Source: Pilatotrama ljubarskyi (lineage: Eukaryota; Basidiomycota; Agaricomycetes; Polyporales; Polyporaceae). From it: 14,262 bases of DNA. The translations under genes were made by a program, and so were the position numbers. The notes beneath the pieces are model-generated. The model was not told where the DNA came from, searched no databases, and was given only the letters and a program-made list of their open reading frames with translations. Shown piece by piece: positions 2,857 to 14,262 of this stretch (positions within the stretch are counted from its first letter, which is position 1; each line of letters opens with the position of its first letter). The stretch is from contig MU277691.1 in the NCBI GenBank assembly GCA_022385805.1, forward strand, positions 375,833-390,094. Direction: 5' to 3'.

Positions 2857-4155
2857 TCAAGATAGCTTCTCAAGAGGCCTGGGCTTGGAGGGGTACACGG
2901 CGTGGAAGTCCGCCACCAGCTCCTGAGCATGACCGAATTCTGTCGCGAGGATCCAGGAGGTTTCCTCGTTGGTGCCTTCATAGCCAGCCCAGTGGACTAG
3001 GTAGAGGAGTTGGCAACTCCACCTCCGGCGGTCGATCTTGGAGTCGAGTATCTCCGCGATCTCGTACTCCGGTTCGCCGTCAACGAGCACCGGAGGAGGC
3101 AGAGGTTGGACACGTCTGGGGATGGTGTCCGGAGTTGCTGGTTCTAGCTGGGATACGTGGAAAACGGGGTGTACTGCGCGCATGGACTCCGGAAGTCGGA
3201 GTGTAAAGGAATGAGTTCTGGCCTGTGCGATGATGGGGAAAGGGCCAAGGAACTTCTCGGAGAGCTTCTTTGAAGGCCACGTAGTGCGGATATGCTCTGC
3301 GTGGACATAAACCTGATCTCCGACCTTGAAGTCCGGCGCCGGAAGATGGTGCTTGTCCGCCTGGATCTGGTACCAGGCTTGGGCATTGGCAATCTGTTGG
3401 CGGAGTACGGAGTGAAGCTCATCGAGATCAACCGCGAACCCGCGGGCGCGCGCAGAGGTGAGGTCCCGCTCAGGATGGACGGAGATCGCGGGGTTGTAGC
3501 CCTTGTTTGCGAAGAAGAGCGATATGCCGGTAGTCGCATTGGGCACGTTGTTGTACGCGAACTCCGCGAGGGGTAGGAGTTGGGACCAGTTGTCCTGCTG
3601 ATAGTTGGAGTAGACTCGGAGGTACTGCTCCAGAGTCTGATTGACCCGCTCGGTCTGACCGTCACCTTCGGGGTGGTAACTGGAGGTGAAGTGAAGGTGC
3701 ATGTCGAGGGCCTTTCCGAGGGAGCGGAAGAAGTGAGAGACGAACTCCGAACTCCGATCGGAGGTGATGTGAGAGGAAACTCCGTGCTTGGAGAAGACAT
3801 GGAGGACAAACAAGTCCGCCAACTCCAAGGCGGTCAAGGTGTCGTGGGTAGGAATGAAGATGGCCTGTTTTGTGAGGCGGTCCACAATGACCAGGATAGC
3901 GGTGTAGCCAGCGAAGTTGGGGAGTTGTTCGATGAGGTCCATGGAGATGGAGTTCCAGGGCCTTTCGGGAATCGGGAGTTGTTTCAGCGTGCCGTAGGGA
4001 AGATGGCGGGGGGACTTAGAACGAGCGCAGGTGGTGGAGGACTTGCAGTAATCCCGGACGAAGATCTGAAGTCCGGGCCAGGAGTATTCTCGGAGTACGA
4101 GGGCCTGCGTCTTGTTCTGTCCCCAGTGACCAGCCGTCGGGTGGTCGTGGTTAGC
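2857..4155 (-). pseudogene. Gypsy pol, integrase and chromodomain segment
   Basis: This is the C-terminal part of the polyprotein. It starts after an in-frame TAG at 4156-4158 (probably a former CAG). The zinc-binding region reads NHDHPTAGHWGQNKT then KSSTTC, where the usual CX2C has become SX2C, so one zinc ligand looks lost. The catalytic core keeps D (SISMD), D (TSDRSSEF, usually SDRGSEF) and E (GQTERVNQ). The second Asp and the Glu are 35 residues apart (D62 and E98 counting from the Met at 3942). A GPY/F module (KFLGPFPII) follows near residue 232. A chromodomain (YEIAEILD...LYLVHWAGY...ETSW) spans about residues 293-345 and is the part expected to bind modified histones and steer integration. 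The natural stop is TGA at 2857-2859. The Met at 3942 is internal, not a true start. Confidence 0.93.
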
Positions 4156-5026
4156 CTAGAGTACGCGGAGACGGAGGTCGTCGGAGTTGGGTACGTAGAT
4201 GCGACCGTTGAGCCGGAGTAGTCCATCTTCGTCCCGGGTCCACTTCGGGTTACCCTCAGCGGCGAGTCGAAGAGCTGCAGAGAGCTCCTGGTTGGGGGTC
4301 GTGGTAGATTGAGCGGACTTGATGTCTGAGCGGAGTTGATCAGAGTCTAGGATGAAGGAGGCGCGGAGCACCGGGTCTCGGAGTACAGTCGCGCGGAGAG
4401 AGGTCGCAAGCTGTTCCTGGGTGAAGACCGGTCGGAAATTATGTGGGTTGACTGCGGAGTAGTCACTGCCCCCCTCTTTTGGGTAGACGTCCCAACGTCT
4501 AGTGAGCGCGTTGGGTTTTGCACCTAGTTTTCCCGGGCGGAAGCAGACTACGAGATTGAACTGGGAGAGGAACTCCAACCAGCGGGCTTGCCTACGGGTG
4601 AGGAGCTTTGTAGTGGCGAAGTACTCCAGGTTTGTGTGGTCCGTGACAACTTCGATCGGAGTTGCAGAACCTTCCAGGTAGTGCCACCAGGTCTTGAAAC
4701 ATTCGAAGATCGCGAGGAGTTCCTTGTCGTGGGTGTCGTAGTTCAACTCCGCGTCGGTCAAGGTACGGGAGTGGAAGGCAATGGGGGGGGAGTTCGCTGG
4801 AGTTGGTGGTGAGGAATAAAATTCCGGCGATAGCGTAGTCTGAGGCGTCGGTCTCAATGGTTAGAGGGCGGTCCGGCTCCCAATGGTGCAAGACCGGAGC
4901 TGTAGTGAACGCCTTCTTGAGAGTGTTGAAGGCCTTGCGGCAGTCCTCGGAGAAGTTCCAAGGAACGGACTTGCGCATGAGGCGGGTAAGGGGTAGTACA
5001 ATCTCGGAGTAGTTGGGTATGAACCG
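4156..5026 (-). pseudogene. Gypsy pol, RT connection and RNase H segment
   Basis: After the stop at 5027-5029 the reading frame resumes with RFIPNYSEI and the connection domain (WNFSEDCRKAFNTLKKA). RNase H follows with its acidic residues visible: [18 protein letters not shown] and VVTDHTNL. In the middle a run of eight C on the minus strand (4783-4790) puts the two halves in different frames. Seven C would keep one frame through the conserved PIAFHSRTL motif, so a one-base homopolymer gain is the simplest explanation. The segment ends in the linker before the integrase zinc region. RNase H would remove the RNA strand during cDNA synthesis, but this copy cannot make an intact enzyme. Confidence 0.92.
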
Positions 5027-6178
5027 TCAATAGAAGTTCGCGAATCCTAAGAAGGATTGTACGTCGCGGACTTTGCGGGGTTTGGGCCAATCGAGGATCA
5101 CCTTGACCTTGGATTCGGACATGGTAAGTCCGTCAGGGGAGAGGATGTATCCGAGGTATTCGACGGAGTTGGCGTGGAACTCGCACTTGTCCACGCGGGC
5201 AAACAGCTTGTTCTTCCGCAGGCGGCGGAGTACCTCTTTGACGTGCTCCCGATGTTGCTCGGGGTTGTCGGAGTAGATCAGGATGTCATCGAGGTAGACC
5301 ACGACGCAGACATCGAGTAAGTCCGCGAAGATGTCATTGATGAATCGCTGGAAAGCGGCAGGGGCATTTGATAGTCCGAAGGGCATTACGAGCCATTCGA
5401 AAGACCCATAGGGAGTCCGAAAAGTGGTCTTCCACTCGTCTCCAGGAGCGATGCGGACTAGGTTGTACGCATGGCGGAGGTCGATCTTGGTGTAGATACG
5501 AGCCTTCCGCGGAGTATCCAACAAGTCCGAGACGAGGGGAAGCGGATAGTGGTCCTTCCGGGTGATCTTATTCAGACCCCGGTAGTCCATGCAGAGTCGC
5601 AGAGATCCATCCTTCTTTATGACAAAGAGGACCGGAGCTCCGCAGAGGGAATTTGACGGACGAATGAACCCCAATCGGAGGTTCTCGTCGATGTACTCGC
5701 GGAGGGTGTCAAGCTCCAGCTTGGAGAGGGAATAGATAGGTCTGAGCGGCGGAGTTGCCCCTGATTCGAGCTCGATCTTGAGGTCGTAAGGGCGGTGCTC
5801 TGGTAGCTCGTCCGCTTTGGATTTGCTGAAGATGTCCGCGAACTCATGGTACTCCGCCGGAACTCCTGTGAGGTCCGGGGAAGAGTCCGATACGGACGTA
5901 CTCCGTGCATTGACGAAGTCCGAAGCGGCCAGATTGAGAGTAAAACTCTCGGAACCGGGGAGCTTACACGCGCACGCGAACACGACGGCGTTGATGAGCG
6001 ACACCTGGAGTTCAGAGGGCGGAGAAGTCGGGGTCGGAGGGTCCGGACGACGCTCAACCGGAGTTGGCGGAGTAACCGGAGCTGGATCGGATACGGGACG
6101 TGTCGCGGGTGCGGCTCGGAATTGGATGCTGCGCTTCTTGCAGTCAATCAGCGGATTGTAGGTGGAGAGCCAGCTGTA
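5027..6178 (-). pseudogene. Gypsy pol, reverse transcriptase segment
   Basis: This is a Ty3-type reverse transcriptase. Visible motifs are [29 protein letters not shown] (first catalytic Asp), [31 protein letters not shown] (the YLDD box) and [10 protein letters not shown] in the thumb. The conserved FLGFANFY is cut by TGA at 5027-5029, where relatives have Arg, so CGA to TGA is likely. Upstream the frame runs through a Pro/Thr-rich linker from the protease. The segment starts just after the TGA at 6179-6181. Apart from its flanking stops this stretch is open throughout. Confidence 0.94.
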
Positions 6179-6562
6179 TCACAAGACTGCGGACACGGAC
6201 TTGTCGAGCGGAGTGACATAGAAATCTATATCAATGACTTCACCGGACGGAAAATGAATTGGCAGAGTGGTAATCCGGGTAATGACATGGTTTGAAGTAC
6301 CATCAAACAGGGATAACCGGAGCGGAGATACTGGTTGAGTAGGAACTCCGTGCTTCTCCGCGAACTGGGAGTCCACGAAGCAGTGCGAAGATCCCGAGTC
6401 TATGAGGGTGCGGAACGGAGTTGGGATGGGATCGGAGTAGAGTTGGATTTGTAGGGATGAGGGATCGGAAAGAGCGGACACGTTGAGCCTTATGACCTCC
6501 GTACCAGAGGAGTCAACACGGTCCTCACGGAGTACGGAGTTCGGAGGACCGCGGACTAGTTT
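6179..6562 (-). pseudogene. Gypsy pol, retropepsin-like protease segment
   Basis: The pol frame enters here by -1 frameshifting from gag. The aspartic protease is recognised by TLIDSGSSHCFVD (active-site DSG), followed by beta-rich sequence ending SAVL. The next codon is TGA (6179-6181), followed by [13 protein letters not shown]. In related elements this reads LGYxWLxxxNPxIDW, so GGA to TGA and TGG to TGC changes are likely. The enzyme would cut Gag and Pol precursors into mature proteins. Confidence 0.88.
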
Positions 6563-6565
6563 TTT
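6497..6565 (-). promoter_or_regulatory. -1 programmed ribosomal frameshift signal at the gag-pol junction
   Basis: In the gag frame the minus strand reads A AAA AAC (6565-6559) followed at once by the gag stop TAG (6558-6556). The pol frame is -1 to gag and open across this point. After a 7-nt spacer comes a perfect 8-bp stem CGGTCCTC/GAGGACCG (6551-6544 with 6526-6519), extendable by G-U and C-G pairs. Its 17-nt loop contains CTCCGTAC (6539-6532), which is complementary to GTACGGAG downstream (6504-6497), giving an H-type pseudoknot. A AAA AAC is a known retroviral slippery heptamer. Confidence 0.8.
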
Positions 6566-7632
6566 GGCTCCTGGGCAGCCTCAGCCGGAGCTGCTGCCGG
6601 AGTAGGGGCCAGGGCTGGAGCAGCCTGAGCGGCTCGGGCCTTGGATGCGGAGGAGGTTCTCTTTGGGCAGGCGTTGACAGAGTGTCCAGCGACGCCACAG
6701 AACAGGCATAGATTGTTGGCGTAGCGCCGCTGCCTTTCTTCCGGAGTTAGCTTCCCATCCTTACCCAGCTTGTCGGAGTACGGCTTCGCCGGGGTTTTGC
6801 CAGGGGTCTTGGGCACAGACCCGCCAGGGGCGGACTTCGGTGGAGTAGCTGGATTTTGCGCCGGGGGTGTAGACCGCTGTCCGGACTTAGACGGAGTACC
6901 GGACTTGTGGTTGGAGGACGCCTTGTGAGTGGTCTTCGAGGGCCCAGACTCACGAGCCTGCTCGGCCTTCCGCTCCTAGTAGCGGTTGTCGATCGACTGC
7001 GCGAGATCTCGGAGTTCCACCAATGTGGCGGGTTTACCGACCTCGGAGATGCGGTCTTTGAGGCGGTTCGGAAGTCCGTCGTAGAAGCGATAGCGGAGCA
7101 GGGCATTGCCCCAGCGGACTAGGGTCGCGAGGCGAGTGAACTGCGTAATGTACTTAGCAATCCGTTGATTCTCGCCCATGCGGAGGTTCATGAGCTCGTG
7201 CTCCGCAGCTCCGGACGCATCATAGGGTCCGAAGTTGACGCAGAGTTCCTCCTGGAAGGCTTCATAGGAGGACATGAAGAGCAGCGGGTTAATCATCGCG
7301 CCTTCGAGGAGGTATGGCTCGAACCACTGAAGAGCTGTCCCCTTGAGGAAGGAGATGGTGTAGGTAACCTTCTTCTGATCGGAGTCGAAGGTCCGAGGAC
7401 GGGCTTTGAAGACCAACTCCAGCTGCGCAAAGAACAGTCAGAGTTTCTTGGGATCGGACCCGTCGAATTGGTCCAGCTCACGGACATTGTTCCGCTCACT
7501 CGCTCCGGAGGTAGGAGGAACTATGGTCTGCTGGAGAGTCCGAGCGAACATAGTGATTGCGGAGGTGAGCTGGGGATGGAGGTCCGCCTCCGGAGTTGGG
7601 TGAGTTGGCTCCGGAGCTGCCGGAGTTGTCAT
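6556..7632 (-). pseudogene. gag: Gypsy gag (capsid and nucleocapsid) with two internal stops
   Basis: The start ATG at 7632-7630 is the first in frame after the copia insertion and opens MTTPAAPEPTHPTPEA. The capsid region shows ELDQFDGSDPKKL, then FKARPRTF, FLKGTALQWFEPYL and YITQFTRLATLVRW, typical of the Retrotrans_gag family. The nucleocapsid has a CCHC knuckle, [14 protein letters not shown] (CX2CX4HX4C), near the C-terminus. The full length would be about 358 residues, normal for a gypsy Gag. The frame is cut by TGA at 7438-7440 (relatives have Arg) and TAG at 6976-6978 (relatives have Trp, NRYWERK). The natural stop TAG at 6556-6558 is part of the frameshift signal. Confidence 0.9.
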
Positions 7633-7651
7633 CGGAGGAGGAGGAGGGTAA

Positions 7652-7978
7652 TGACGGTTACGAGCCGACGGCGTACGGACCTAACGGGAGTGGTGCTTCA
7701 GGGGGGGAAACGACTATCATATTCATAGGTAACTACCTAACGGGAGTCTACATAGAAGTCAGCATATGGCATACAGCATACAGGCGGTGAGAAGACTTAC
7801 GGTGCTTCAGCGGGGGAAACGACTGAAGCACCGTCGAGCGAGATGGACGGTATAAGTGGAGGGCGATAATCGATCAGGAGTAGCGCCCAGGCGGAAGCAC
7901 GCACTTCCTAATTAGGACTTCTGCCTGTGACCGGCGGAACTCCTAAAATGGTAGTGCGTCAGCGCTTGTGCGCCAACA
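7652..7978 (-). repeat. 3' LTR of the copia element
   Basis: The complete 327-bp LTR reads TGTTGGCGC...CCGTCA on the minus strand, with TG...CA ends, directly after the polypurine tract. It contains two copies of a 24-bp unit (7692-7715 and 7801-7824, one mismatch here; the other LTR has the unmutated base). It also contains two copies of a 13-bp unit (7679-7691 and 7735-7747). CGGTGCTTCAG and CTGAAGCACCG (7800-7810, 7823-7833) form an 11-bp hairpin. A weak TATA-like TTATAC lies on the minus strand near 7850. Confidence 0.93.
7748..7800 (-). other. Candidate spliceosomal intron inside the copia LTR
   Basis: On the minus strand this 53-bp segment begins GTAAGT and ends TATGTAG, with a GCTGAC branch-like motif (7763-7758) 11 nt from the end. 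The sequences on its two sides (24 bp at 7801-7824 and 13 bp at 7735-7747) occur again at 7692-7715 and 7679-7691 joined with nothing between, as if this segment had been spliced out. It would lie in the transcribed leader if transcription starts below the TATA-like motif near 7850. No transcript evidence is available here. Confidence 0.6.
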
Positions 7979-7990
7979 CTCCCCCTCAAG
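7979..7990 (-). other. Copia polypurine tract
   Basis: CTTGAGGGGGAG on the minus strand abuts the TGTTGG start of the 3' LTR. The pol stop codon TGA (7988-7986) lies inside it, so coding ends within the tract. Confidence 0.85.
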
Positions 7991-8408
7991 CCTGACGCAG
8001 ACCGAGAGTGAACGACAACGCCTTGACACGGGGACGAGGGAGTGCCTTCGTCAAGAGGTCGGCAATCATCTCCGTTGTCGGGCAGTACCGGAATGTGAGC
8101 GTCTTGATATCGACGAGCTCACGGAGGTGATGGTACCGAATGTCAATGTGCTTCGTGCGAGCGTGGAACACATCGGCATTGTCAAGGACTCGGAGAGCGC
8201 TCTGATTGTCGCAGAGCATGAGTGTCGGACCAGTCGGGGGTGTTGTGAGTTCAGCGACGAGAGAGCGGAGCCAGGCAGCCTCGCGCGAGGCGTCAGAGGC
8301 AGCGATGTATTCCGCTTCCGTTGACGAGAGGGCGATTATCGACTGCTTGAAGGAACGCCAACTGATCGCGCCTCCGTTGAAGAGGAAGACGAAGCCGGAG
8401 ATGGAGTG
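7986..8408 (-). pseudogene. Copia pol, RNase H segment
   Basis: After an in-frame TGA at 8409-8411 the frame continues HSISGFVFLFNGGAISW, ALSSTEAEYIAAS (catalytic Glu), MLCDNQSALRVLDN (catalytic Asp) and ARTKHIDIRYHHLRE, then the closing MIADLLTKALPRPR. These are the standard motifs of a Ty1/copia RNase H (RNase_HI_RT_Ty1 type). The natural stop is TGA at 7986-7988, inside the polypurine tract. Relatives have Arg at the upstream stop (DHRHSISG), so CGA to TGA is likely. Confidence 0.93.
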
Positions 8409-9389
8409 TCAATGAGCTTGAGAAGCCCAATCGGCGTCCGTGTACCCAACAAGGCCTTCCGAGTTGAAGCCAAGGGTGAGAGAGCGCTCTCGGGTTCCCT
8501 TTAGATAGCGGAGTACGCGCTTTGCGCCGTCCCAGTGGATACGGGCCGGGTCCGACATGAAGCGTGTGAGTGTTGAGACAATGAACACGATGTCTGGCCG
8601 TGTACCGATAGCTGCATACATAAGGGACCCGATGAGCTTCGCGTACGGCTTGCGCTGCATGTCCGCGCGCTCGTCGTCAGTGAGGTTGTATGCGAAGAGG
8701 TTCGCGTGCGGATCGGCAGGCACAGTGAGTGGGGCAGCGTCCGTCATCTTGAAGCGGACGAGGAGGGTGTCAATATATGCACATTGGGAGAGCGAAATCT
8801 CGCGCGCGGCCCGGTTGCGGTGGATCTCGAAGCCGAGGAGCCAGCGGAGTTCACCAAGGTCGACGATATCGTACTGACTCGCGAGCTGTGCCTTGAGGGC
8901 GACCATTAGGCGCTTGCTGTTCGCAACAAGTGTGCAATCATCAACATGAATGACAATTATGATAACCACACCATCGTCGAACAGGTAGAAGACACCTGGG
9001 TCATAGCTGCTGCGAGTGAGGCCGATCTCGTCCATGAGGACGCAGACCTTGTGATACCACTGTAGCCCCGCTTGTTTAAGGCCGTACAGCGCCTTGAGGA
9101 GCTGCCAGACGAGATGTGTCTTGCCAGGGATCTCGAATCCGGGAGGTTGTTGCATGTAGATCGTCTCGTTGAGGTCGCCATTGAGGTAGGCATTCTTGAA
9201 GTCGATTTGATGAACCTCCCAGTTGTTGGCAGCAGCGAGAGCAAGCACGAGTCGGAAGGATGAGAGACGAGCGGTTGGCGAGGACGTTTGCATGTAGTCA
9301 ACACCATAGACCTGCGAAAAACCTTGAGCACATAGGCGGGCCTTGTACTTGACGACACGGTTGTGTTCGTCGCGTTTTTTGCGCAGAGC
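8409..9389 (-). pseudogene. Copia pol, reverse transcriptase core segment
   Basis: This is an RVT_2-type reverse transcriptase. After TGA at 9390-9392 the frame runs ALRKKRDEHNRVVKYKARL, YGVDYMQTSSPTARLSS, HQIDFKNAYLNGDL (first catalytic Asp), ALYGLKQAGLQWY, IVIHVDDCTLVAN (catalytic pair in HVDD, where YVDD is more usual), LGFEIHRN and LIGSLMYAAIGTRPDI. It ends at GYTDADWASQAH, the beginning of RNase H, at the TGA 8409-8411. The open stretch is long, so the lesions are few and probably recent. Confidence 0.95.
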
Positions 9390-10040
9390 TCATACAGCGC
9401 CGACCACGTTCGCACCCTCCGGGGGCTCAACCAGCTCGTAGGTCTTCATCTTCCTGATGCGCTCGAGCTCTTCCTCCATGGCTTCCCTCCATTGCTCCCG
9501 TTCCGGCCCAGTGATCACATCGCGATAACTTGGTTCGTCTTCAGAGCCCATGGCGGCAAACGCGAAGAGTGGCGCGCTTGAGGACAGCGCTGCATACACA
9601 TCTTCAGCATCCGTTTCACCATCGCTCTCATTCTCCCCCTCAAGATCTACACCTCACCCGTCTTCAGGTGCGGCAATGCGCGCTTCCTCACCGGGGGCAG
9701 ATCTCTGAGCTCGATGTGCGCCACGTCTTCCGGCTGGTCCTGATCCGGAAACTGCCTGCAGCTCCGCGAGCTCGCGGGCCCATCGGGCGGCAGGCTTGCG
9801 TGCACGCTTCGAACCACTGGGCTGCACTTCAGGAGCGGGCGCGCTCGGCTCGGCGGGGACTTGCTCGGGCAGCGCTGCCTCAGCTTTCACTGGATGTCGG
9901 ACTTTTCTCATGCGCATCGCGAGGCCTCCGGAGGCGCTAGGAGGCTCCGAGGCTGATAGCCTTCCGGAGGCGGGATATTTCTTCGGGAGGGCGGCCCTCC
10001 GGCAACCCTCCACCAGCCTCCGCATAGCCTCGCCACGCCG
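9390..10040 (-). pseudogene. Copia pol, integrase-RT linker and RT N-terminus
   Basis: In the RT frame this covers a Pro/Ala/Arg-rich linker, then TGA at 9654-9656, the acidic DLEGENESDGETDAED, and the conserved RT entry SEDEPSYRDVI, REQWREAMEEELERI and YELVEPPEGANVVG. It ends at TGA 9390-9392, where relatives have Trp (TGG). The integrase frame overlaps the upstream part until its stop at 9908-9910. The change of frame therefore lies in the GC-rich stretch about 9911-10040, upstream of which the RT frame is closed by TAA at 10041-10043. Confidence 0.85.
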
Positions 10041-11053
10041 TTAAGCGAGCCGGAGCCTGGCGGAGGGCGGTCCGAGACTGTCTCGAGGGTAGCGCCCTCC
10101 AGATGCAAAATAACTTTTTCCGACAGAGGCGCAGGTTCTGAACGCGTGTGCGCAGAGCTCGGGGCGGCGTCATCATCTGGAGAGGATGTTGGAGCAGTAG
10201 GTGGCCGGGTCTGCAAGGAGAGCGGCTTGCTCGTGTGAGGCAGAGAGTCAGTGGACGTGCTCGGGGTGTCATCCTGTACATCCTCCCCCTCAACCCGGGT
10301 GCGTACACTGACTTCAATACCATCTTTCGGCTCGAAACGAATGTTTCGCTCAACGGAGACGGTCCGACATTCCGGCCAGTAGATACAATGTCCCTTGCTG
10401 TCGAAGTTGAAGCCAACCCAGCGCACGGGTTTTGACTTCAGATCGAGCTTGCCAGCGTTCTCCTGGAAGACCCATACCGCCGCTCCGAAGCGTGGCAGAT
10501 TTGAAAGGTCCGGCTTCTTGCCTGTCGCTAGCTCATGTGGCGTCGAGTTTGGTGTGTTCTTCGACGTCGTCCGGTTGCGAAGCCAGGCAGCATGCAGGAC
10601 AGCCTCGCCCCAGAGGAATTTTGGGAGGCGGGCATCGAAGAGAAGAGCTCGCGCATGTTCAGTGAGCGTGCGGTTGAGGCGCTCCGCTTTGCCGTTCTGC
10701 TGCGGCGAGTCGTGGACTGTGAGGTGGCGCGAGGTTCCCTGTGATTCAGAATGAGCAGTGAACTCATGGCTGGTGTACTTGCCACCACGGTCGCTTTGAA
10801 GCTCTTTGATGGCCATCACACCACGGTGGACCTTGGCCCATGCCTCGTACGCCCCATATCGCGAAAGCGCGTCGCTCTTATTGCGCATGAGCGAGACAAA
10901 TGCTTCGTCGGAGTAGTCATCGAGGAACATGATGAAGTATTGCTTGCCATCCCACGTCTGGACTTGTGCCTTGCCCCATACGTCTGAATGGACACGTTGG
11001 CCGTAGCGCGTACTTGGCGGGCTCGATCGCTCCTTCGGGAAGGGCGCGCGTGT
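9908..11053 (-). pseudogene. Copia pol, integrase segment (5' end cut off by the solo LTR)
   Basis: Native sequence resumes at 11053. TRAPFPKER starts just left of the solo LTR and continues RVHSDVWG (first catalytic Asp), FIMFLDDYSD, IKELQSDRGGKYTS (second Asp) and SPQQNGKAERLNRTL (Glu). The C-terminal part has FLWGEAVLHAAWLRNRT, TPHELATGKKPDLS and FGAAVWVF, as in copia integrases (rve core). The last 50 or so residues before the stop at 9908-9910 are Gly/Arg/Pro-rich and probably out of frame. The reading frame open up to 11239 includes solo-LTR sequence, so its apparent N-terminus is not native. The zinc-binding half lies on the other side of the insertion. Confidence 0.93.
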
Positions 11054-11741
11054 TGTCGCGCAACGTCTGGTCTCGTCGAGGTGGCGACGGAGAGAGAGAC
11101 TTATCGACTCGGGGTCGATATGTGGTGGTGGTGTGAGGGGAGGTGTTATAGGATGTGCAACCTCGATAAGAGTCGAGCTTGCTGCAAAGCTTGTGGGTTT
11201 TCCTTCTTTTCCGACAGAGGCTTCGCCGAGTTCGTACACCTGACAGTTCTAACCGTCGGATTTGGAACTGATTGAATGCCTAAGTATGGACACAGATACC
11301 TAATAGTAGGTCTGTGGTGAATAGAAGTCTCTTACGGAGAGTGCTTCTATTCCCTGAGTGCTGGTCTAACTCTTATCCTAACCTCGCAGAGAGATTTCGG
11401 GCAGAGTCTCCCCTTATATGTCTGAGTGGTGTGTGGTCCTGTCTTGTCTGCTGATGATCGAGGGCTCGTCCTCTGATCCGATGCATCCTGATCCTATGTC
11501 CTGACGCTACTTGCAATTTACTTCTCTGCCTCTGTGGCCTAAGTAAAATTGCCTCGGTAGTGATGAATTAACTGTTTAATTCTATCACTATAGTAGCTAT
11601 GCTTGCTGAATGAAGTCCCTGTGACTTCACTTGCTGACTGGCTGATGACTTGCTTGGTACTTTAGTTCTGACCTTGACGTGTTGTCTCGAATTGCTGCTA
11701 TATTCGTTCGTATCCTTCTATGGCACCTCTTATCAGCCCAG

Positions 11742-11749
11742 TATTTATA
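11742..11749 (-). promoter_or_regulatory. TATA box of the solo LTR
   Basis: TATAAATA on the minus strand, about 80 bp downstream of the nearest TGACTCA-type site. It fits a U3/R boundary if the LTR is in minus orientation. Confidence 0.5.
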
Positions 11750-11826
11750 CTGTTCTGAGAGTGCACTGAGTAATGTACAGTACAAACAAGGGAAAACAAG
11801 TAATTTGAAATAGTAGCCCCTATCTC

Positions 11827-11990
11827 TTACTCATCCTGACTCATTCTGACTCATCTCAACCCCTATTCCTGTCATCCTTCGTAATCGGAGCTTTCTGATT
11901 CGTCAAAGCTTGAGTGTAAGTCATGCTGAGTCATTTTGACTCATGCTCGGCGTGACTAGTGCAGGCTCGGCAATGACTCATACTGACTCA
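11827..11990. promoter_or_regulatory. Cluster of Gcn4/AP-1-like TGA(C/G)TCA sites at 10-bp spacing
   Basis: Perfect TGACTCA or TGAGTCA occurs at 11837, 11847, 11927, 11937, 11974 and 11984, with one-mismatch forms at 11827 (TTACTCA) and 11917 (TAAGTCA). Within each group the starts are exactly 10 bp apart, one DNA turn. TGACTCA is the consensus of bZIP activators such as Gcn4. The cluster lies 78-249 bp upstream of the minus-strand TATA box. Confidence 0.6.
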
Positions 11991-12498
11991 CATGGGCCTA
12001 GGCTGGTCTATCATGATTGCTTGAGAAATCATGAGTCCTTACCTGCCTGGCTCACATTTCATTCTATGGTGCATCTAGTATCTTCTGTACTCTCTTGAAC
12101 ATCTGCTGCATCTCTGAGAACTCTGATTCAGGTTCTAGTAGATCCTTTATCATGTTCCTAGACCATCTATGAAGGATTCCAAATAGGCAGAGGTAATCTT
12201 GATTGATAGACAGAGGCACCCTGTTTCAAACTTGAGCACATATTGGGTTTCTGAACCAGGCCAGGAGTTGTTCGAGTGTTGATTGAGGCTGGAGGAGGGC
12301 ACGACGGTATTGTGAGGCAGGTATTATTAGGAACTCAATATGGCAACACACTTGGGGTGTGGTTTTGCATTCTCTGATGTCTGAGTCTGCGCATGCTGCC
12401 TTAGATAATTCCAAAGTGATCAAACTGGTGCTTCTGGTTGTTCGCCTCACTGGGCTGGTTGGTCATGTCCAAGTACCAATCCACTTTGGTGCTTGACA

Positions 12499-14088
12499 GC
12501 GTCTGCTTTGCTTGCTGACAGATGTCGCAGAACTTGACCTCTGCGCCTTCGAGGTCGACGCCTGTGATGACGCCATGTGCAACCATCTGGTGCAAGATCG
12601 GAGGGTAGGCGTGCCCCATTCGTCGGTGGAACTCGAGGTCCGACAGCGTCGTGGCGGTGGTTTCGGCCACCTGCGGCGTCGTAGTAGGTCGAGTACCATG
12701 GAGGGGATACAGGCCGTTCTGCTCGGCAACTGGGGTCAGTTTGTTGCCGGCAGGCATGGTCAGATGGCAATGGTTCCTCTCGAAGCGTACTTGAAAGCCT
12801 GAGGCGGCGAGTCGGCTGACGGAGATGAGGGCGACGGGCATGGTGGGTGCGTAGAGGACGTCATGGAGAATGAATTCATTTGTGTTGCCGTCATCGTGCT
12901 TGATCGTGACACATACGTCCCCTTCACCTGTGGCATGGAAGACCCGACCGTCTGCGGAATTGATGGGAATGGGAACGATCTCGCGGAACGTAAGGAAGTT
13001 GTCGCGGCAGGGGTCGAAATGGCGAGACGTGCCCGAGTCTATAAGTCGGGTGTAGCGAGAGCGAGGCAGCGCATTTGCAGAGACTCTTGAGAAGTCAGTC
13101 GAGACGAGGCATGCTGAGTCTTCCCAGAACGTGTAGTCTTCAAGACGTGATGGCATTGCTGCACTCGCCTGTACGGTACTCGATGACGCTACCTTTGCGT
13201 TCTCCCCACCACCAGTCTTCGAGCCGCTGTCCGTCTTCTCCTTCTCCTTTCCTTTCCCTTTCCCTCTCCCCCTGCGCCGTCTCGGACCTTGCCCCTCCTT
13301 CCCTCCACCCTTGCTCCAGCACTCCGCCTTCGTGTGGCCTTCACGGTTGCAGTTGAAGCACTTGATCTGCCCGCCGCTTGCGGCAAGAGCGGAGGCGCCA
13401 GCGGACTGCTTGTCATCGAGGGCGAACTCGTCGCGGGCAATCTCAGTGATGGCGTCGATGAGCGCGGTGGATGAGATCGATGTTCCGGCAGTCCGAGCGG
13501 AGGCCATGATGGCACGGATGGCAGGGCGGTAGGAGTTGGGGAGAGTGGCGAGGATGAGCACCTTGTACTGCTCGTCGGGCATGACGCCTCCGGCGGTCGT
13601 GTACTCGGAGCGTAGGCGGGCGAGTTGGGCGAGAACGGAGCGGGGATCGCCTCCTTCCTTGCAGCGGAGCTGTTGCATCTGCGTGAGGATGCTGACTTGC
13701 ACGAAGTCGCCTTGGTTGTCGTATTTGGCCCGAACGACATTCCAGGCTTCGTCGGCGCGAGTCTTCGAGGTGATCTCGAGCTTGAGCGTCTCGGAGACGG
13801 TTTGGAATAGGAGGGACCTGATGGTTGTGTGGTTGCCGGCCCACTTGTCCACAGCGGTCTCGTACCTCTCATCGGCATCGGAGTCGACGCCTGGTGCGGT
13901 CATCGGTGTCGGTAGGCGCTCCCTGCCCTCGAGATAGCGTCGGAGTCCCTTTGCTTGAACGGCCGTGAGGAACTGGGCCTTATATAAAACCCAATTCGAT
14001 CCGTCTTCGTTAAGCGCGGGGACCTTGATGCTTGAGCTATTCTCAGGCTGTGAGATGGGTCGGGGGCGATCTTCTGAATGTCGGCCAT
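12499..14088 (-). pseudogene. gag-pol: Copia Gag, protease and integrase zinc region (5' half of gag-pol)
   Basis: The preferred start is the ATG at 14088 (AAAATGG context; MADIQKIAPD). The early frame and the main frame differ by one base, with the change between about 14030 and 14080. After it come ALNEDGSNWVLYKAQF and GLRRYLEGRE, then the copia-type Gag (UBN2-like: KWAGNHTTIRSLLFQ, ITSKTRADEAWNVV, GDFVQVSILTQMQQL). A CCHC knuckle CFNCNREGHTKAEC follows, then a basic Gly/Lys stretch, the protease active site RLIDSGTSRHFD, and the GAG-pre-integrase part with HRRMGH and CDICQQAKQT (HHCC zinc ligands). The solo LTR interrupts it at 12498. Translation would run on into it and stop at 12401-12403. 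The Met at 13903 is internal. Confidence 0.92.
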
Positions 14089-14098
14089 TTTGGAGCTG

Positions 14099-14113
14099 GC
14101 AGGGCTCATAACC
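14099..14113 (-). other. Primer-binding site for half initiator tRNA-Met
   Basis: The + strand reads GCAGGGCTCATAACC, identical to the anticodon-arm region of yeast initiator tRNA-Met (CAT is the anticodon). The minus-strand RNA is therefore complementary to an internal part of the tRNA, not its 3' end. It lies 3 nt from the LTR. Drosophila copia is known to prime from a cleaved half of this tRNA. The ATG at 14109-14107 inside the site is in frame with the Gag start at 14088. Confidence 0.8.
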
Positions 14114-14116
14114 TAA

Positions 14117-14262
14117 TGACGGTTACGAGCCGACGGCGTACGGACCTAACGGGAGTGGTGCTTCAGCGGGGGAAACGACTATCATATTCATAGGTAACTA
14201 CCTAACGGGAGTCTACATAGAAGTCAGCATATGGCATACAGCATACGGCCGGTGAGAAGACT
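14117..14262 (-). repeat. 5' LTR of the copia element (first 146 bp, truncated by window)
   Basis: Same sequence as 7652-7797 except for three substitutions (equivalent to 7702, 7783 and 7785), with no indels. It contains the joined 13+24-bp unit at 14144-14180 and most of the candidate intron. The window ends inside that intron, three bases short of its GTAAGT donor. The remaining 181 bp or so should continue to the right. Confidence 0.95.

Follow-up and report, generated by a model that had tools for sequence, protein, structure and literature searches.

The Ty1/copia elements (Pseudoviridae), and Drosophila copia in particular, are the described systems closest to the element reported here; Drosophila copia is primed by half of its initiator tRNA. 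An element that passes through RNA is usually considered to lose its introns. The RNAs of HIV-2 and SIVmac contain an optional small intron in R/U5, and we know of no spliced copy in the LTR DNA of these viruses. An intron is also known in the Penelope pLTR, and introners, which are present in fungi, are short spliceosomal introns in mobile DNA that are found in many near-identical copies at unrelated sites. In retroviruses R serves the first strand transfer, and poly(A) signals lie at both ends of the RNA such that the 5' one must be silenced, for which HIV-1 and the foamy viruses use U1 at the major donor (excerpts of PMC12789967). For intron retention in Penelope-like elements an antisense template is favoured and an unspliced sense one is not excluded (excerpts of PMC3846280).

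The copia element of this locus shares with the Ty1/copia elements its gag, an integrase followed by RVT_2, its LTRs, and a primer binding site (PBS) complementary to the anticodon arm of an initiator tRNA. It differs in that R is unbroken in both LTRs of standard Ty1/copia elements, whereas here the 5' R seemingly results from removal of two introns and the LTR holds both forms. Retroviruses suppress the 5' poly(A) signal, whereas an element of this type would splice it out along with the second copy of R. It resembles HIV-2 and SIVmac in the predicted splicing inside a transcribed LTR, although the genomic RNA of those viruses is unspliced. Penelope-like elements likewise have terminal repeats with a promoter-like motif and intron-containing sequence moved by a retroelement, but they use a different reverse transcriptase (RT) and priming, and the excerpts describe no second spliced copy (PMC3846280). 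Unlike introners, the insert described below has a fixed location in the LTR leader, in the first of two copies, in all 12 families. A search of mostly open-access literature, seen in part, returned no LTR with both a spliced and an unspliced leader copy, and a phrase search of the same literature for an intron in an LTR returned only lentiviral-vector work.

The copia element and its two leader copies

The window (the whole 14,262-nt stretch of DNA analysed) contains a copia element on the minus strand, with the following features:

7649-7978, minus: 3' LTR of the copia element (TGTTGG...CATTA), 330 bp, repeated at 14114-14262
7825-7978, minus: U3, placed by the TATA and TC/AG motifs, upstream of the putative start site
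7649-7680, minus: rest of U5; the LTR end lies just before the PBS in the 5' copy
7986-11248, minus: integrase, RT and RNase H region in three open pieces (Pfam rve, SH3_retrovirus, RVT_2), with the integrase piece at 11248-9908 and the RVT_2 piece at 9389-8409
12401-14122, minus: copia gag, Pol beta-barrel and pre-integrase frame (Pfam Retrotran_gag_2, Pol_BBD, gag_pre-integrs)
14099-14113, minus: PBS GGTTATGAGCCCTGC, complementary to the anticodon arm of the host initiator tRNA
14114-14262, minus: 5' LTR with E2, spacer, E1, E2 and U5, ending inside intron 1 at the contig end

The coding domains follow the copia-type order along the minus strand (PF14223, PF00665, PF07727); the last open piece (7986-8408) has no Pfam match, and RNase H is assigned to it by position only. 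A purine-rich stretch directly precedes the TGTTGG of the 3' LTR. The window ends with contig C22, so that the first 24-nt unit of the 5' LTR lies outside the visible sequence; comparison of the two LTR pieces shows 3 differences in 149 positions. As in Ty1/copia elements there is an LTR pair in the window and target-site duplication in relatives: 5-bp direct repeats flank L038 and L040, whose LTRs start with TGTTG, the outer flank of the window element being past the contig end. A tRNA-derived PBS lies beside the 5' LTR; the letters of GGTTATGAGCCCTGC occur at six host loci, on the opposite strand of what appears by eye to be an initiator tRNA gene. Among 7998 candidates scored with the gag frame there are 38 protein matches, the best named being from Trametes pubescens (56%), Meripilus lineatus (43%) and Trametes sanguinea (50%), which makes a basidiomycete host likely.

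About 1.4 kb of other DNA (approximately 11060-12495 of the window) splits the pol frame, separating its pre-integrase piece from its integrase piece; in the relative L038 these two lie nearly side by side. A Ty3/gypsy-type element with a weak chromodomain match occupies 2857-7648 on the minus strand (gag 7437-6976, RT 6178-5027, integrase 4155-2857), and since it starts shortly past the copia 3' LTR, the copia element probably landed in its leader. A 51-nt inverted repeat (1-51 and 840-890, 92% complementary, 788 nt apart) perhaps marks the ends of a small DNA transposon, and by eye a similar stretch lies upstream of the LTR of L101.

The preliminary description of this DNA had reported a spliced and an unspliced version of one short sequence in the LTR, and the sequence bears this out, every piece lying at its stated coordinates. 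On the minus strand a 24-nt unit (7824-7801) is followed by a 53-nt segment (7800-7748) reading GTAAGT...GCTGAC...TATGTAG and by a 13-nt unit (7747-7735), and a second 24-nt unit with one mismatch (7715-7692) is fused directly to the same 13 nt (7691-7679). No mismatch is seen in the second 24-nt unit of the other LTR (14262-14114). The junction falls exactly at GT and AG and cannot be slid, because the flanking bases differ. The 13-nt unit is correctly placed, but the exon is 11 nt long (ACTCCCGTTAG, 7747-7737). The GT that follows ACTCCCGTTAG in copy 1 is the start of a second intron-like segment, overlooked previously, and that in copy 2 is coincidence; copy 1 of E2 ends in YAG/GTA, which is where its match to copy 2 stops. 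The leader is thus divided as follows:

7851-7854, minus: TATA, 30 nt before the putative start A at 7824
7801-7824, minus: E1 copy 1, putative first exon, starting at an initiator-like A
7748-7800, minus: intron 1, 53 nt, GTAAGT...CTGAC...TAG, with a branch-like A at 7759
7737-7747, minus: E2 copy 1 (ACTCCCGTTAG)
7681-7736, minus: intron 2 (proposed), 56 nt, comprising the GTA spacer, E1 copy 2 and E2 copy 2, with end TTAG
7716-7736, minus: spacer (GTAGTTACCTATGAATATGAT), possible poly(A) signal region
7692-7715, minus: E1 copy 2, belonging to the spliced copy, with a single mismatch against copy 1
7681-7691, minus: E2 copy 2, directly continuing E1 copy 2, with the joint at the exact site of intron 1

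The first unit opens at an initiator-like TTC/AGTCG 30 nt after the TATA. Excision of both introns from the transcript would yield E1-E2-U5-PBS, the same as copy 2.

Array-bearing LTR families in the genome

Eleven other LTR families of the genome have the same layout of U3, E1, intron 1, E2, GTA spacer, E1, E2 and PBS. None of them was found by DNA search with the window's LTR, which, intron 1 included, matches only its own element in whole-genome DNA searches (the counts being lower bounds). An RT protein search of the genome gave 35 matches, with 47% identity for the second best, which follows the window's own RT. Four relatives were viewed with wider flanks: L038 and L040 have the layout, as does C18 (L039) once its 5' LTR is included, and C17 (L041) has no array layout.

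A genome scan with GGTTATGAGCC returned 45 sites, compared to 12 for a reversed control pattern, and about 600 bases upstream were read at each (only 149 bases at the window's own 5' site). The array adjoins the PBS at 11 of these sites (C22, where it is cut by the contig end, C69, C51, C18, C29, two on C7, C43, C45, C10 and C25), lies away from the PBS at one (C28), and is represented by the fused form only at another (C87). Six sites are tRNA genes and seven look like chance or other repeats; those without an array comprise 13 of one LTR family, two of another (C17 and C161) and four that are LTR-like. Two more arrays lie beside RT matches, on C166 and on C7 at 558 kb, the latter between two pieces of another element's RT. 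The resulting anatomy table holds 14 loci in 12 families, which form about six clusters by our own reading of the LTR letters. A copia RT is nearby for eight of the 12 (the window, L038, L040, L042, L044, L045, L010 and L050, the last tied to RT through L012, L016 and L027); for L033, L051, L060 and L062 no nearby copia RT could be assigned.

The 13-locus family without an array (L043, L046, L047, L061, L063, L064, L065, L068, L072, L073, L077, L080 and L081) has by eye a donor-like CCACAG/GTAAGC in the leader shortly before the PBS, and may have another kind of leader splicing. Near the copia element L018 (C29) there is a minisatellite of CTCTTCGCGGATGTTCGCAAG-like units at about positions 2500-2660.

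The pattern 'A-insert-B ... AB' does not arise readily by chance. A tolerant detector found it in none of 1840 dinucleotide shuffles of 46 LTR/PBS sequences and flagged ten of the real sequences, eight through the array and two (L050 and L069) through another repeat; an exact-match detector flagged 12. With its low-complexity filter the tolerant detector misses the arrays of L050, L067 and L069, which the exact-match version finds, and that of L042, which was seen by eye; it additionally flags non-array repeats in L018, in L027 and once elsewhere in the window. The spliced-junction pattern is absent from the viral_contigs set, in which none of 47 stretches was confirmed as an RT relative, and no Rfam match was obtained at the gathering threshold.

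In an RT tree of 23 rows, array-bearing rows fall on both sides of the midpoint root, with L007, L008, L009, L010, L014, L018 and L025 on one and L012 and L016 on the other, and thus the layout may be old. The rows L013, L015 and L019 have an assigned LTR without an array (L018, L025, L013 and L019 being labelled by the nearest same-strand PBS site). The states of the 12 labelled rows can be explained with as few as two changes (the other 11 of the 23 are unlabelled), and the midpoint rooting does not distinguish gain of the array from its loss.

Splice-like boundaries and agreement between copies

The boundaries recur with little variation. In all 12 families U3 ends in YTC and E1 starts with AG, and the copy boundary is within 0-2 nt of TC/AG; TATA is present 30-35 nt upstream of E1 in seven families and absent there in five. 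The intron-containing copy is first in every family, and its insert, intron 1, is bounded by GT...TAG, is 52-59 nt long and has a CTNAY motif 11-14 nt before its end. In all 12, E2 copy 1 ends in YAG followed by GTA, after which come a spacer of 9-24 nt and the fused E1-E2, so that intron 2 reads GTA...YAG over 54-66 nt, with identity between the copies ending 0-2 nt past the YAG. By sequence, intron 1 has the properties of a spliceosomal intron, with GT..AG ends, a putative branch point and a host-like length; in the host actin family several exon gaps are ~47-53 nt, and the candidate introns at two of them are 65 and 70-78 nt. Intron 2 fits in its ends and length in all 12 families, but a branch-like CTNAY lies 11-16 nt from its end in only seven, with none near the 3' end in the window family, L038, L050, L060 and L033. 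By sequence, R is predicted to be non-contiguous at the RNA 5' end, whereas a conventional LTR element has one contiguous R at both RNA ends. Short duplications of the E2 end (CTTACAG; TGCGGCTTACAG) occur just after E2 copy 2 in L050 and L069; they lie beside the putative acceptor of intron 2 and are present in some copies of a single family.

Within a locus the two copies agree closely, differing at 4 of 530 positions over 12 loci (one per family); L051 has two differences. Between families the median identity of E1 plus E2 is 0.60, compared to 0.47 for shuffled sequences, which reach at most 0.66; 16 of the 66 family pairs exceed that maximum, and some families are thus kin. The sister families L062/L010 and L050/L033 differ in E1 and E2, yet both copies match within each locus.

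The L050 family, with 41 match rows, gives a closer view. Eighteen rows are full copies, 16 are partial and one is the sister family; two loci (four rows, on C87 and C21) are contracted to E1-E2 only, and one (two rows, on C26) has E1-intron 1-E2. GTAAGT...TAG is kept in 17 of the 18 full copies, the exception being L113. Over the 17 full copies that have equal length (L113 excluded), the E1 copies show 5 differences in 408 positions, and L111 has a private change in both of its E2 copies. The E2 copies disagree at one to three positions in five of the 18 loci (L107, L108, L110, L116 and L117), as expected from mutation after insertion or if copy 2 came from the 5' leader of the second packaged RNA, and recombination is a possible source. 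We considered seven of the partial rows, which have only E1-E2-U5 and start exactly at E1, as retrocopies of spliced RNA, and rejected them: all of these loci (L083-L089) adjoin contig ends or N runs, which points to assembly breaks at the short E1 repeat, and they were dropped as evidence. Variants of the array may consequently be under-counted.

Origin of the copies and a proposed replication cycle

We consider it likely that these elements are LTR retrotransposons that assemble their terminal redundancy by splicing. Copy 2 is best understood as a reverse transcript of the doubly spliced leader that is made anew at every transposition and acts as the 3' R during strand transfer. Transcription would start at E1 copy 1, as suggested by the TATA and TC/AG motifs, and intron 1 and intron 2 (spacer, E1 copy 2 and E2 copy 2) would be removed at the RNA 5' end, giving a mature leader of E1-E2-U5-PBS. 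Half of the initiator tRNA, as indicated by the PBS, would prime minus-strand DNA, copying U5-E2-E1 to the RNA 5' end; this DNA would pair with the uninterrupted E1-E2 of copy 2 at the RNA 3' end and be extended through the spacer, E2, intron 1, E1 and U3. The new LTR would take copy 1 and its introns from the 3' LTR, with copy 2 rewritten from spliced RNA, and rewriting in each cycle would keep the copies alike while families diverge. The spacer probably holds a poly(A) signal, which the 5' end would lose through splicing. Weighing against this reading are the five families with no TATA at 30-35 nt, the five with no CTNAY near the end of intron 2, the E2 disagreements in the L050 family, the partial kinship of the families, and the three RT rows and the 13-locus LTR family that have no array.

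The preliminary description had suggested that a spliced leader was copied back into the LTR. This fits the comparison of the 12 families, with the changes that it is not a rare accident of a single element and that seemingly two introns are concerned. It had also raised the objection that splicing should erase the intron from the next generation of LTRs; the proposed cycle answers this, because copy 1 with its introns would be inherited through the 3' LTR and only copy 2 would be derived from spliced RNA.

A hairpin across the start site may explain how intron 1 survives at the RNA 3' end:

7823-7834, minus: hairpin arm ACGGTGCTTCAG across the putative start site, by eye, pairing with 7799-7810
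7799-7810, minus: hairpin arm CTGAAGCACCGT, holding the GT of intron 1, by eye, with computed energies

Pairing is possible between the part of U3 directly ahead of the start site and the stretch formed by the E1 end and the donor; in the window it joins ACGGTGCTTCAG to CTGAAGCACC/GT, and in L038 it extends by eye over 13 bp. Mean U3-donor duplex energies are -6.97 for matched families, -4.67 for swapped families and -3.36 for shuffled U3; the observed mean was reached by 3 of 20000 permutations of the family pairings, a significance that is overstated because the families are related. The predicted mean probability that the donor is unpaired is 0.26 for RNA beginning at E1, compared to 0.15 and 0.13 with 40 and 80 nt of U3 added, and accessibility is predicted to be lower with U3 in nine of the 12 families, with L044, L051 and L033 equal or opposite. 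The predicted masking of the donor at the RNA 3' end is modest. Together with the covariation this suggests a donor that is free at the 5' end and probably masked by U3 pairing only at the 3' end, where U3 is present.

Variant LTRs bear on the cycle in different ways. In L038 the fused unit is preceded by two intron-bearing units in the 3' LTR and by one in the 5' LTR, and the same five bases flank the element on both sides. The expanded form fits the product expected from unspliced strong-stop DNA pairing with copy 2; a whole-unit LTR difference within one element needs a further slip beyond ordinary reverse transcription. The contracted LTRs at C87 and C21 are expected side products of the proposed mode, and DNA recombination can equally account for them; as direct-repeat recombination yields an identical product, the contracted LTRs at C87, C21 and C26 are no proof of splicing.

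The strongest competing account, which we nonetheless regard as unlikely, is a variant of the splicing-built reading and shares part of its probability. The RNA would stop where the spacer stops, directly ahead of E1 copy 2, and minus-strand strong-stop DNA of the spliced leader would be joined to that end without R homology, adding copy 2 anew in each cycle. Such an end-to-end jump would explain why copy 2 starts within 0-2 nt of the putative cap site in all 12 families, and the 3' LTR of L038 can be read as a unit added in this manner. In one family three states occur at the base that precedes E1 copy 2, one of two such columns among 294 examined, and this speaks for the splicing-built reading as well as for the jump. 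CAATA is kept before the junction in 17 of 18 copies of one family, which suits an inherited junction. Moreover E1-E2 offers 35-48 nt of ready homology, and this suffices without a special jump.

It is considerably less probable that a spliced leader was copied into an ancestral LTR once and that the layout has since been passively inherited without renewal. The array-bearing rows in both halves of the midpoint-rooted RT tree and the E2 disagreements in five of 18 loci of one family are compatible with a single ancient event, but passive copies would drift within loci as much as between families, whereas the within-locus differences number 4 of 530 against a median identity of 0.60 between families.

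The other origin offered in the preliminary description, tandem duplication in the LTR followed by introner-like intron gain in the first copy, is poorly supported and very improbable. The insert does have good splice signals, and 19 of 66 family pairs of intron 1 lie above the shuffled maximum, a somewhat raised identity that splice signals and kinship could explain; the intron 1 of the window is only 0.53-0.67 identical to the other eleven, and shuffled sequences reach 0.65. Insertion would have had to strike the first copy every time, in about six LTR clusters and with units opening at TC/AG in 12 of 12 families, and the second GTA..YAG boundary would be left unexplained. Equally improbable is recombination or deletion among direct repeats of DNA, splicing being uninvolved: the contracted LTRs at C87, C21 and C26 are the leftovers expected of recombination between E1 or E2 repeats, but it would not place the difference exactly at GT/AG with a branch-like motif in 12 of 12 families, and the window junction cannot be slid. 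The introner and indel readings are thus disfavoured by position and boundaries, and less so by the partial dissimilarity of intron 1.

Returning to the splicing-built redundancy, we put forward its complete form only tentatively, at somewhat less than an even chance: that the spliceosome builds the 5' R from two exons, that the LTR stores the spliced form as the 3' R, that a hairpin cut by the start site makes the intron spliceable at the 5' end and protected at the 3' end, that the introns thereby persist, and that the 5' poly(A) signal is spliced out. Introns in these elements appear to persist because one LTR copy stays outside the spliced template. If this is true, splicing would be tied to strand transfer and would offer LTR elements a way around having two poly(A) sites, the LTR would be a DNA record that reveals where silent elements start transcription and where they are spliced, and the dependence of a retroelement on the spliceosome for its terminal redundancy would become testable.
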